A stretch of DNA of 34,473 bases from Microcaldota archaeon (GTDB taxonomy: Archaea; Micrarchaeota; Micrarchaeia; Micrarchaeales; CABMGC01). Numbering within the stretch: position 1 is the first letter of the stretch; each line of letters opens with the position of its first letter. This document shows positions 2,585-34,473 of this stretch, piece by piece. The translations under genes and the position numbers were made by a program. The stretch lies in NCBI GenBank assembly GCA_021801765.1, contig JAJYXO010000019.1, forward strand, positions 1 through 34,473, given 5' to 3'. The notes below the pieces were generated by a model, which searched no databases, was not told the DNA's origin, and saw nothing but the letters and a program-made list of their open reading frames with translations.

Positions 2585-3286
2585 TCAAGCAAGCTTGACT
2601 ACGTCCATACTATTGTATTCTAAAACTATAAAGCAACTCCCGCCGCGCGGGTTGCGCGATGCATGTTCGATGCCTTTTATATTGCCTTTTACTAGAAATA
2701 TGGGTGACGTTTCGAGCGCCACAATCTCTTCGTTATCTGAAGTGCCAATAAAAAGGGAGCTTAGATAATACTCTCTTGGGAACCATCTCCATCCGTCCAT
2801 ATATCCGCACTGTAGGGTCTCTTTTGCTCTCTTTAAGCCTAAGGACATTGAAATTTCTGAAAAGCTTTTACTGGTACCACCGTGGTAGTATATTTTGTCT
2901 ATTTGCCTGAAAGACAATGAGGTTGCCAGGGCCAAGGATGGCTTGTTGTTCTTGCGTATAAGCAATCGGATAACCTTGCTTCTAGATATCCCCATTGCTT
3001 TTAAGGTGAGTAGCCTGCCTATCCCTCTCCTCCTATGACTTATATGAACGCGCAGACCTTCGAGCCAGGCAAAATCCTTGAAAACCCTGACATGTATTAT
3101 TCCTACTATCCTGCCATCTATTACAGCTTTTAGGAAAACGCCGCTTTCCATCCATTCATCGAATATATCCTTAATATAATCTGCATGCCCTGAGGCAGTC
3201 TCTGCCATGCTGACTACCTCAACCTTGTCACTTTTCAACATTCTTAAGATTTCCATAATATTCGCAACCTGGCATTTATTTTGCAT
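2585..3286 (-). CDS. GNAT-family N-acetyltransferase with extra C-terminal region
   Basis: Predicted acetyl-CoA-dependent acetyltransferase of 233 residues. The GNAT core is at about residues 20-130: a beta strand with GIIHVRVF, LEGLRVHISH, then the acetyl-CoA-binding motif A RRRGIGRLL (85-93), followed by a strand-helix with NNKPSLALATSLSFR. Residues 140-233 form a second region I do not recognise, containing a WRWFP aromatic patch that may shape the acceptor site. A TATA-like AAATATATTT at 3303-3312 predicts a transcript start near 3280, inside the longest frame. The real start may therefore be Met11 (3256). It lies 67 bases downstream of the stalk-like repeat operon on the same strand and could be partly co-transcribed with it. 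Acceptor substrate unknown. Confidence 0.78.
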   Translation of the reverse strand: MQNKCQVANIMEILRMLKSDKVEVVSMAETASGHADYIKDIFDEWMESGVFLKAVIDGRIVGIIHVRVFKDFAWLEGLRVHISHRRRGIGRLLTLKAMGISRSKVIRLLIRKNNKPSLALATSLSFRQIDKIYYHGGTSKSFSEISMSLGLKRAKETLQCGYMDGWRWFPREYYLSSLFIGTSDNEEIVALETSPIFLVKGNIKGIEHASRNPRGGSCFIVLEYNSMDVVKLA

Positions 3287-3353
3287 ATCGGTAAATTTTG
3301 TAAAATATATTTGGATTTGGCTCTTGTTGTATTTTAGCGAAATCGCAATAGGA

Positions 3354-4274: not shown

Positions 4275-5235
4275 TGCTTACACCTATTCCAGTAAACGTG
4301 AGCACATAGCCAATCATCGCAATGTCAGGATATATACCCATCGCATGGACTACCTTGGTGATATTCTCCACAGTTGGTTTTTTGCCCACTGAGCCTATAA
4401 AATATGCCGCGCTAACGTAGATAGCCGGGGCAGTGCCGTAGTTAAGTGTTAGCACGAAGTCGACGACTTCTTTGTCTGGAGTTACGCCTATGGACTTCAC
4501 CATTTCAAGCATGCCATTTACATTGAGTGTTCCGTCATTTTTAATGTCCTTGCCTATGAAGGCAAGCGCACCTACAGCTGCAAGATAGTAAAGAAATCCT
4601 TTCCGCATATAAATCATCACGTTACTTACCTCGAAAGTTCTGTGGAGCTCTGCTATCAGCAGCCTACCTGTCGCTGCGGCAGAGTCAATCATCCCTTTGT
4701 TGAGTTGCTCGTAAATGGATTTGTTTACTTTTGGCTCAATTTTTCCGGATTCGAGGTCGATTGTATGCCTTGCGATGGATTCATCAGGCTCTGCGCCCAT
4801 GGCTTTTACCACTTTCAGAATGTTATCTATAGTAACTTCTTTATCGCAGACGCGGAGATAGTAAAGCGCAGGCGAGTATGCTATGGTGGATTTGAATTTC
4901 AGTGAGTCCACCATCTTAAGCATGTTCTCGCTTGGGTTTATACCTAAGGATTCAAGCACACGCGTCACTGTTTTGCGGTTCACTTCTATGCCATTTAGAG
5001 CGAGCATTATTGAGCATGATATATAGGGCAATGCAGCGTGCTGCACCATGTTTCCGAAGATGCGTATGACTACCTTCTCGAGTACATTGGCGTTTTCCAT
5101 TACTCTACTTATGTCTTCACTTATAAGCTTGGCCATCAAGGTGGCTACTTTAGTTATTGCCACTGTGAATTTTGCAATCTCCTCGTCGGGGCTTTCTGGC
5201 TCCCTTGCTGCTGCGTTTGCTTCATCTGCACCCAT
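4261..5235 (-). CDS. Tandem P1/L12-N-terminal-domain-like repeat protein (4 units), gene C
   Basis: A 324-residue paralogue of genes B and D. Units lie at about residues 68-112, 117-161, 213-265 and 270-315. Unit 4 (YVSAAYFIGSVGKKP, then VENITKVV) is one of the closest to the stalk P1 dimerisation domain. The third unit carries an insertion after GKD (IKNDGTLNVN), as in gene D. The N-terminus is charged (MGADEANAAAREPESPDEE), followed by a helical segment (FTVAITKVATLMAKLI) that recurs in the other members. The linker before the second pair has RLLIAELHRTFE, matching LMELNRTFE and LIMELDRTSE in the paralogues. It starts 2 bases after the stop of gene B, so translation is probably coupled. No catalytic motif, Cys pair or membrane segment is evident. 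I do not know its function. Confidence 0.75.
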   Translation of the reverse strand: MGADEANAAAREPESPDEEIAKFTVAITKVATLMAKLISEDISRVMENANVLEKVVIRIFGNMVQHAALPYISCSIMLALNGIEVNRKTVTRVLESLGINPSENMLKMVDSLKFKSTIAYSPALYYLRVCDKEVTIDNILKVVKAMGAEPDESIARHTIDLESGKIEPKVNKSIYEQLNKGMIDSAAATGRLLIAELHRTFEVSNVMIYMRKGFLYYLAAVGALAFIGKDIKNDGTLNVNGMLEMVKSIGVTPDKEVVDFVLTLNYGTAPAIYVSAAYFIGSVGKKPTVENITKVVHAMGIYPDIAMIGYVLTFTGIGVSNAGN

Positions 5236-12729: not shown

Positions 12730-12901
12730 GCTAGCTTAAAAGCTTTGCGTTAACTTCGCAGTTCGAAGGAATTCGGCTGCTGCATTTTCCTAATATTACG
12801 CAGAAACAAAATAAGATCTAGGAGAGATTAATGTCAACATTGGATAGTGAATTATTATAGCAGACCAAAGTTGGCAAAGGAAGCTGGCGCCGGGACTGGG
12901 A

Positions 12902-12930
12902 ATTTCATTAGCTTCCTTTCGGAAACTAAG
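12902..12930 (-). other. tRNA intron in the T loop (position 59/60)
   Basis: A 29-base intron. The junction forms a complete bulge-helix-bulge: outer T stem CTGGG/CCCAG, 3-base bulge ATT, 4-bp helix TTCA/TGAA, 3-base bulge AAC, then a 9-bp inner stem closed by a GAAA tetraloop. Cutting after the second base of each bulge leaves exactly the canonical T loop TTCAAAT. Position 59/60 is a non-canonical but known archaeal intron site. Confidence 0.88.
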
Positions 12931-12968
12931 TTTGAACCCAGATGGCCCGAAGGCCACCAGATCTCGAG

Positions 12969-12983
12969 TTTCGCCAATTTAAT
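12969..12983 (-). other. tRNA intron in the anticodon arm (about position 31/32)
   Basis: About 15 bases (reads ATTAAATTGGCGAAA on the minus strand) separate the 5' anticodon strand CCAGA from the loop CTCGAGA. The boundary can slide by one base because A flanks both sides. A GCCA/TGGC helix with GAA on each side could form a relaxed splicing motif, but it would not cut at exactly the ends that give a 7-base loop, so the junction is unresolved. Confidence 0.7.
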
Positions 12984-13037
12984 TCTGGCGCGTTGCCTGA
13001 TTCCGCCATCCCGGCATATTAGATTTTCACAATAATT

Positions 13038-31609: not shown

Positions 31610-31869
31610 TACTAAATGTGCAATGTTGCTCAGCGAATACTGCCAGAGGCAGTGTAACGAAACAGGTGTTTCAGATATTTAATGGCACATGGCCTGCAGT
31701 AAGCTTAATAAACCCTTTTGGATAAATAATTCTGGTGCTTTAATGGCAACCGCTAGCTCTTAGTGGCAGTGTTTCGAGAGCTACTATTGCTTGATGAGAT
31801 ACATAACTTAGAGCAGAGGCACCGCACGTGAGATTGCAAATGCTGCAATTGATTTGAGTGGAAGCGAGC
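31610..31869 (+). other. 23S rRNA leader with two hairpins, no 16S or spacer tRNA
   Basis: This stretch contains no gene I can support. A stem TAGCTCT/AGAGCTA (31754-31760 with 31777-31783), extended by GCAA/TTGC (31746-31749 with 31787-31790), and a second hairpin ATTGCA/TGCAAT (31833-31838 with 31844-31849) may belong to the pre-rRNA processing region. There is no 16S 3' end (no CCUCC anti-Shine-Dalgarno) and no tRNA-Ala. The 23S gene therefore appears to be transcribed on its own. Confidence 0.45.
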
Positions 31870-34473
31870 TTGAATAATTTTAAGCCACCTAGAGGATGGC
31901 TTGGCTCTGGCAGCGATAAAGACCGTGGCAAGCTGCGATAAGCCTGGGGTAGCCGCATGTCAGGCTCTGAACCCAGGATAGTCTTTTGCTCCATGAATAG
32001 TGGCGCATGCATACGCGGGGAATTGAAATATCTTAGTACCCGCAGGAGAAGAAAGCGAAAGCGATGCCGCAAGTAATGCGAATGAAAGCGGCGTAGGGCA
32101 AACCGAATTGTGCCGTGCGAACGGCATCAGATGTGGTGCAGCTTTTAGACTGGCTCTGTGAGCTCAATGCGCTGGAAAGCGCAGCCATAGAGAGTGACAG
32201 CCTCGTGAGTTAAACCGAGTCAGTTGTGCTGTGTAAGAGTAGCTCGGCCTAAGTATGTCGAGCGAATACGGGGGCATTAAACCCCAACCCTAAATATTGG
32301 CCAGAGACCGATAGCGAACAAGTAGCGCGAGCGAAAGCTGAAAAGAACCCACGCGTGTGGGGCTGAAAAGATCTGAAACTAGGTGGTTACGAGAAGGCAT
32401 GGCGCGGAAGGAATGATAGCCGCAGAAGCGAAGGTGCGAGAGCACAGAGCGATGCGGAAGGAACAGTGTCATGTCTTTCTTCTCGAAGCAAGAGCCAGGG
32501 AGTGTATGGGTGTGGCAAGCCGAAAGGCGTAGCGAAAGCGAATGCGCGCAAGCAATGAGGCGCAGGGTATGAAAATGCCTTAGTCACTCTTATACGACCC
32601 GAAGCCATTGTGATCTACGCGCGGCCAGGACGAAATCGGGTTTGTGCCCGACGGAGGTCCGCAACCAATTCTGGTATATCCGACTGGGTGAGCTGCGGGT
32701 AGGGGCGATAGACCAATCGAACATGGCAATAGCGGGTCCCCTTCGAAGTATATTTAGTATAGCCCCGGGCGAGCTTGCACATGAGGTAGAGCTACCGATT
32801 GGAAGTTATGGAGTCGAAAGGCTCCGTCTTCCTCTCAAACTCCGAATGCATGTGCTGCGTAGACCCCGGGAGTCGGCTGCATTGGGTAAGCTAGTGCAAC
32901 GAGACTTGAAAGGGAGTGACCGTGGTTAAGGTCCCCAAATCCTAGTTGAGTGTATTGAAGGACGGCATGATCTCAGACAGTCGGGAGGTAGGCTCAGAAG
33001 CAGCCAGCCTTTAAAAAACGCGTAATAGCGTACCGATCAAGATCGTGTTATCCGAAGATGGACGGGGCTAAACTAGGTACCGAGACCACGGCATGCGAAA
33101 GCATGGGTAGAAGGGTATGCTGTGCGGCAAGAAGCGCGGCCGTGAGGTCGCGTAGACCGGCACAGCAGAGAAAATCCTGGTGTTAGTAACAGCAAATAAA
33201 GGTGAAAATCCTTTACGCCGAAAGCACACGGTTTTCCTTGCGATGATCGTCAGCTGGGAGTTAGCCGATCCTAAGCAGACAGCCAATTACTAGTCTGCAA
33301 AAGGGAAGCCTGTTAATATTCAGGCGCCTAGTACGTAGGCGTGGCAACACAAGGCGTATTTCTGAAGCTTGGGGATAGGCCTGAAACGAGGTGCAAATAG
33401 CTGCGGAGTCTCATTATGAGGAGAAGCAGCCAAATGAACCAAATATGGCTGAGTTCCTGAGCCAGTGAAAAGGGAATACGCATCGATCGTACTAGATCGT
33501 ACCTAGAACCAGTACAGGTGCTGCTGGCCGAAAAGGCCAAGGCGTGTCGGGAGAACCCGGGTTAGGGAAATCGGCAAAATAGTGGCGTAAGTTTTCGACA
33601 AGCCATGTCTGCGCTTAGTAAGCGCAGATAGCATTATCAAGGGGGGAGCAACTGTTTATCAAAAACACAACTCACCGCAAAGCCGTAAGGCTTAGTACAG
33701 TGGGTGACGCCTGCTCACCGCTAGTAAGCGAAACCCCGTTTCAACGGGCCTAAGCACTGGCAAAGAGCGGGAGTAACTCTGACTCTCTTTAGGTAGCGTA
33801 ATACCTCGTCACTTAATAGGTGACTTGCATGAAGGGCGTAATGTCTCCCCCACTGTCCCGACTCGGGACCTGGTGAACTCACTACGTGGTGTACATGCCA
33901 CGTTCTCTCAGTGGGTAGCGAAGTCTCCATGAAGCTTGACTATAGCCTGTTGTTGTTGCGTGATGAGTGATGCATAGCGTAAGTGGGAGCGTCGAAGCAT
34001 GCGCTGCGGTGCATGTGGAGCGGCAATGTAACACCACTCTTCGTTTATTACGCAACTCACTTTATTAGGAAAGCAGCAGGTGGATAGTTGGACTGGGCGG
34101 TTGCTTTCGATAAAGAAACGAAAGTGACCAATGCTCTGCTTAGGTGGGTTGGGAACCCACCGTAAAGCATAAAGGCAAATGCAGGGCTGACTGTATCCTG
34201 AAAAGCGTGGGATGCAGACTGGAAACAGGGGCTTAACGAACTCTGGATGCCCTTTTAATGGGGCACCATGCTGTCAAAAAAGTTACTCTGGAGGTAACCG
34301 GTTCGTGGCGGGTGAGAGTTCACATCGACCCCGCCGTTTGATACACCGATATGGGCTTAGGTTATCCTGGCGGTGCAGGAGCCGCCAAGGGTTGGACTGC
34401 TCGTCCATTAAAAACCTACATGAGCTGAGTTCAGTACGTCGCGAGACAGTACGGTAGCAACTACTGAGAGTGT
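31870..34473 (+). rRNA. 23S ribosomal RNA (3' end outside window)
   Basis: Archaeal large-subunit rRNA. The 5' domain begins near AAGCCACCTAGAGGATGGCTT (about 31880, where the first 20 bases are diagnostic). It continues through the L11-binding region (CAGAAGCAGCCA near 32994, GCGTAATAGC near 33020), helix 69-71 (GGTAGCGTAATACC near 33792), the P loop (34091-34100), the peptidyl-transferase ring (34290-34435) and GAGACAG near 34442. The window ends at about E. coli position 2625, so the sarcin-ricin loop is outside. Length to this point (about 2600) leaves no room for a large intron. Several near-universal core bases are changed, some with matching partner changes. The exact 5' end is uncertain by about 15 bases. 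Confidence 0.93.

Follow-up and report, generated by a model that had tools for sequence, protein, structure and literature searches.

Two introns, one in the T loop, interrupt a tRNA-Ser(CGA) gene of a Micrarchaeota genome, and similar T-loop introns occur across the order

Does the segment at positions 12885 to 13015 of the window, i.e., the whole 34,473-nucleotide stretch of DNA analyzed here, encode a serine tRNA interrupted twice, as a sequence-only reading had proposed, and if so, where exactly do the introns lie and how widely are such introns distributed? The proposed coordinates proved exact, and the gene was found on the minus strand, which the earlier reading had left unstated (Table 1). 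On this strand, with the introns in brackets, the 5' part of the gene reads GCCGGGA TG GCG GAATCAGGCAA CGC G CCAG [AATTAAATTGGCGAA] A CTCGAGA TCTGG T, and the 3' part reads GGCC TTCG GGCC AT CTGGG TTCAAA [CTTAGTTTCCGAAAGGAAGCTAATGAAAT] T CCCAG TCCCGGC G CCA. The spliced gene is a class II cloverleaf with a 7-bp acceptor stem, a 5-bp T stem, and a long variable arm, and its serine identity is indicated by G73 and by the anticodon CGA, which is established from homologues and intron-minus alleles. ARAGORN called the spliced form tRNA-Ser(CGA) and made no tRNA call in the window as it stands, unspliced; the unspliced gene scored 15 bits against Rfam tRNA, for which the cut-off is 29. The precursor strand folds at z = -4.1, with 0 of 200 shuffles equally good, and covariation was detected at 10 pairs of the spliced cloverleaf (9 homologues). 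A plus-strand reading was rejected, as it folds too (z = -2.1) but yields no tRNA.

Table 1. Features of the tRNA-Ser(CGA) gene, in window coordinates
Feature	Positions	Strand	Basis or remark
tRNA-Ser(CGA) gene	13015 to 12885	minus	G1 = 13015; last A of encoded CCA = 12885
Exon 1, tRNA positions 1-30: acceptor 5' strand GCCGGGA, D arm, CCAG	12985..13015	minus	intron-minus alleles L255-L260
Intron 1, 15 nt AATTAAATTGGCGAA, at 30/31	12970..12984	minus	homologue comparison
Exon 2, positions 31-59: anticodon loop CTCGAGA, variable arm GGCC-TTCG-GGCC, CTGGG, TTCAAA	12931..12969	minus	
Anticodon CGA (Ser, codon UCG)	12964..12966	minus	ARAGORN on spliced form; homologues
Intron 2, 29 nt CTTAGTTTCCGAAAGGAAGCTAATGAAAT, at 59/60	12902..12930	minus	MFE fold; intron-free T loops in homologues
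Exon 3, positions 60-73: T, CCCAG, TCCCGGC, discriminator G73 (G = 12888)	12888..12901	minus	
Encoded CCA	12885..12887	minus	read from sequence
Probable TATA box TTTATATAA	13036..13044	minus	ends 20 nt upstream of G1; inference

Matches to the gene were found in 51 of 60 related genomes. A pattern search of GTDB, which itself required the 3' part of the 30/31 motif, returned 75 loci with this motif, nearly all labelled Micrarchaeota; the other labels were a few Marsarchaeota, Mancarchaeum, 'bacterium', and 'uncultured archaeon', together with two Hadarchaeota. The 75 genes analyzed below comprise 74 of these loci and the window's own gene. Their anticodon CGA is invariant, as fixed by the search pattern, and CGA is also present in the homologues found by BLAST. 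An encoded CCA, noted in the window from the sequence and indeed present, is not a general property, as it occurs in only 4 of the 75 homologous genes (the window's own, L121, L126, and L150). Upstream of the 75 homologues lies an A+T-rich block at approximately -38 to -26, the TATA-like block being loosely placed. When seven homologous loci were examined with Rfam, two with the 30/31 intron alone passed (L060, 44.9 bits; L101, 45.4 bits) and the remaining loci gave no match; because most of the seven gave nothing, Rfam is a weak test for these genes.

Natural intron-minus alleles allow the junctions to be read directly. The 30/31 intron is absent in 9 of 295 Micrarchaeota genomes, which carry CCAGACTCGAGATCTGG at this place, i.e., the predicted exon junction exactly joined; six of the nine have complete intronless tRNA-Ser(CGA) genes, and three have the T-loop insert only. 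The 30/31 intron alone is found in many other homologous genes. Since all four states of presence and absence exist (neither, 30/31 only, T-loop only, and both), the two introns are gained and lost independently of each other. A 30/31 intron with the GGCGAAA motif, as in Micrarchaeota, was also observed in the tRNA-Ser(CGA) genes of Hadarchaeota (L101:2910-3007 and L146), explicable by common descent or by convergence that the exon sequence imposes.

The T-loop intron has a strict bulge-helix-bulge (BHB) motif. In the MFE fold, a 4-bp central helix, UUCA/UGAA, lies between 3-nt bulges on opposite strands, AAC and AUU, and is flanked by the outer stem CTGGG/CCCAG and by a 9-bp inner stem closed by a GAAA loop. 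Cuts after the second nucleotide of each bulge restore TTCAAAT exactly. The precursor fold and the spliced sequence both agree with the 3-4-3 motif leaving TTCAAAT that had been proposed, and the proposed intron lengths (15 and 29 nt) and the position 59/60 were correct as well. When the T-loop insert was shuffled, the 4-bp helix appeared in 2% of cases and the helix together with the 9-bp inner stem in 0 of 200,000. Among the 75 genes, 36 have an intron-free T loop, plain TTCAAAT or TTCGAAT, and 39 carry T-loop introns of 14-45 nt, with the central helix paired at 4/4 positions in 33 of the 39, compared to 0.8 expected in shuffles. Intron removal leaves TTCAAAT or TTCGAAT in all 75 genes, and ARAGORN calls Ser(CGA) each time. 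Across those genomes of the family and order with fully read genes, T-loop introns in Ser(CGA) are frequent in the window's own family, and none turned up in the sister family.

The motif of the anticodon-arm intron is of a more relaxed kind. Unspliced, the anticodon arm has a 22-nt loop between CCAGA and TCTGG. Within it, GGCG of intron 1 pairs with exon CGCC (positions 25-28) to give a 4-bp helix, with cut sites AG↓A and AA↓A, the latter in a 3-nt bulge at the 3' site. An inner helix is absent and the outside helix consists of only G24-C32; lacking the inner helix, the motif falls in the relaxed bulge-helix-loop (BHL) class rather than the strict BHB, with the exact class uncertain because A29-U and G30.U are able to extend the helix and may hide the 5' bulge in the window's gene. 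The exon half of this helix never varies, which places its pairing beyond the reach of covariation. In homologues, the stretch after CCAG varies in sequence and length, and GGCGA(A/G)ACTCGAGATCTGG is kept, a conservation required by the search pattern in the GTDB set and not in the BLAST set. CCAG is followed by A, T, or C, and this variation means that A31, the partner of T39, has to derive from the 3' side; the intron therefore sits at 30/31 with cuts AG↓N and AA↓A. A cut at 31/32 (15 nt after CCAGA) would give the same product here but fails where homologues have T or C, and this candidate was rejected.

These junctions matter for the identity of the tRNA. The hand fold of the sequence-only reading held in that a perfect serine cloverleaf does result from removal of both inserts, but it left the anticodon identity undecidable from the sequence alone: depending on where the 15 nt are taken out, the anticodon becomes CGA, UGA, or UAA, and since ARAGORN accepts all three products, the fold is not decisive by itself. 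Identity as Ser(CGA) is instead fixed by the homologues, including the natural intron-minus genes. A tRNA-Leu(UAA), obtained by removing the 15 nt on the 3' side, near the canonical 37/38, to leave UAA, is very improbable, even though ARAGORN accepts four such removals and a long variable arm is also typical of Leu. No BHB can be drawn at that cut, the ATTAAAT stretch varies freely in homologues whereas CTCGAGA does not, the intron-minus genes carry the exactly joined Ser sequence, and two further Leu(UAA) genes are present in the genome (L041 and L042); moreover, G73, which fits archaeal Ser and not Leu, points to Ser.

That standard finders reject the unspliced gene could also be taken to mean a decayed tRNA pseudogene with two chance insertions. 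We find this hardly credible, since every stem is intact, both inserts retain splice motifs, the gene has been retained across genera while accumulating compensatory changes, and no other Ser(CGA) was found in the genome. One tRNA-Ser(CGA) gene was detected in the MAG (828 kb, 62 contigs, 77% complete), and a second intact gene is possible given this completeness and fragmentation. It is barely conceivable that only the T-loop insert is a true intron and the anticodon-arm insert is retained as an enlarged anticodon loop; the 30/31 motif, relaxed and without an inner helix, would be compatible with this, but a 22-nt anticodon loop is not expected to work, the insert is missing from the nine genomes above with the predicted junction exact, and BHL motifs are reportedly cut by the epsilon2 enzyme (PMC12397907).

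We are highly confident of a tRNA-Ser(CGA) precursor with two introns that would be cut by an epsilon2 endonuclease and joined by RtcB into an ordinary class II tRNA-Ser. The MAG encodes, on C45, an endonuclease of 384 aa that aligns end to end with ARMAN-2 4fz2 (residues 11-384 to 14-387, 500 bits, E 4e-149) and has three units in one chain, as in epsilon2 enzymes; this full-length match bears out the earlier suggestion of an ARMAN-type lineage with a three-unit endonuclease. An RtcB ligase (537 bits) is also encoded, and archaeal RNase P RNA is present in the MAG and in 11 of the 12 relatives searched. In Nanoarchaeum, tRNAs start at G1 and there is no RNase P; a start of this kind was considered here and dropped, given the RNase P RNA of the MAG and its relatives and the loose placement of the TATA-like block.

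From the gene and the two enzyme genes, we infer transcription, cleavage at the given phosphates, ligation, and charging of tRNA-Ser(CGA). The precursor transcript would carry both introns, and the epsilon2 endonuclease would cut the self-contained strict BHB of the T arm (UUCA A A↓C ... UGAA A U↓U) and the relaxed BHL at 30/31 (CGCC A G↓A ... GGCG A A↓A); epsilon2 enzymes have been reported to accept both BHB and BHL motifs (PMC6379350; PMC12397907). RtcB would then ligate the exons at the junctions CCAG^ACTCGAGA and TTCAAA^TCCC, yielding a class II tRNA-Ser whose anticodon is CGA and whose T loop is UUCAAAU. The T loop would suit introns because the first bulge and one half of the central helix are already present in its near-invariant UUCAAA. 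Any hairpin with UGAANN behind it should be spliceable at this site, and would stay so when copied between genes, half of the splice motif being supplied by the recipient UUCAAA.

T-loop introns are not confined to this gene. In the same genome, Ser(GGA) (L154) and Ala(GGC) (L040) have them too, as does Leu(CAA) (L043), in which the motif is weaker. The T-loop BHB pattern matched 36 of 40 related genomes, and 0 when the pattern was reversed. At the 63 T-loop-intron loci, ARAGORN made 61 calls when the introns were removed and 0 on the unspliced genes, with two labels corrected by hand (L154 to Ser(GGA) and L244 to Ser(CGA)). The isoacceptors were Ala(GGC), Arg(UCU, CCU, UCG), Ser(CGA, GGA), and one called Lys, a list shaped in part by the search pattern, which includes a GGG/CCC T stem. 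L154 itself (C42, about 4825-4975, minus strand) is a tRNA-Ser(GGA) with an anticodon-loop intron of ~12 nt and 41 nt at 59/60 in a strict BHB, and it was missed by the Rfam search.

Within single genomes, the introns of different tRNAs are more alike than chance would give, with a mean likeness score of 0.089 compared to a mean of -0.066 when genome labels were shuffled within isotype (sd 0.017; 0/2000 shuffles reach the observed value). For example, the introns of Ala, Arg(CCU), and Arg(UCU) are alike in G043, and those of Arg(CCU) and Arg(UCU) are identical in G048. These comparisons suggest that T-loop introns have likely been copied between tRNA genes of one genome, with genome base composition as a possible contributor. 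We consider it an even call whether portable introns have repeatedly landed in the Micrarchaeota T loop at 59/60, with copies spreading among Ala, Arg, and Ser genes within genomes; such a spread would parallel that of Thermoproteales in a lineage that is unrelated to them and uses another endonuclease.

Archaeal tRNA genes that carry several introns, with BHB motifs outside the canonical position, were reportedly described by Marck and Grosjean in 2003 and Sugahara et al. in 2008, and the multi-intron tRNAs and epsilon2 endonuclease of ARMAN-1/2 are said to have been reported by Fujishima et al. in 2011 and Hirata et al. in 2012; the translocatable tRNA introns of Thermoproteales reportedly go back to Fujishima et al. 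in 2010. The window's gene shares with archaeal multiple-intron tRNAs the short introns, BHB or relaxed motifs, cuts after the second bulge nucleotide, and both intron positions, but compared to the well-studied Thermoproteales the lineage is another one and T-loop introns are concentrated in few isoacceptors order-wide. ARMAN-1/2 have the same phylum, three-unit enzyme, and multi-intron tRNAs, although the window's genome probably belongs to another genus. As with the translocatable introns of Thermoproteales, similar introns are found in different tRNA genes of a genome; unlike those, the similar introns described here come from Micrarchaeota and share a single site, 59/60.

Both 30/31 and 59/60 are on the published list of non-canonical intron positions, and intron transposition has been described in Thermoproteales (PMC4090602); ARMAN-1 and ARMAN-2 are listed among archaea with multi-intron tRNAs (PMC4033280). 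The intron positions, multi-intron tRNAs, and epsilon2 enzyme are already known, and the gene extends this known class. An order-wide census of T-loop introns was not found in the literature searched, the key primary papers lying outside that search, and the order-wide occurrence of these introns (36/40 genomes) is possibly new. Because genes with T-loop introns drop from ordinary annotation (ARAGORN, 0/63), tRNA sets reported as incomplete in Micrarchaeota may in fact be complete. T-loop introns persist throughout an order in a limited set of tRNAs, a wider pattern more useful than the gene itself, and the within-genome likeness opens the way to testing, in a second archaeal lineage, whether introns move between tRNA genes.

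Several other RNA loci were observed in this genome. The two tRNA-Leu(UAA) genes, L041 (C9) and L042 (C25), each have an insert between the D arm and anticodon arm, for which upstream GCCACAG can pair with downstream CTGTGGC. In other archaea, the tRNA-Trp intron holds a box C/D guide RNA; the tRNA-Trp(CCA) at L156:359-514 (C10) has a long anticodon-loop intron containing ATGATGA that appears to resemble it. At L155:365-395 (C13, about 3264-3294), an orphan T arm and acceptor-like 3' end (GAGAGTTCAAATCTCTCCCATAACG) were seen with no 5' half nearby; candidate explanations are half of a split tRNA, an integration scar, and a fragment. Finally, an archaeal 23S rRNA gene (Rfam RF02540, 2061 bits) occupies positions 31868-34473 and runs off the end of the window.
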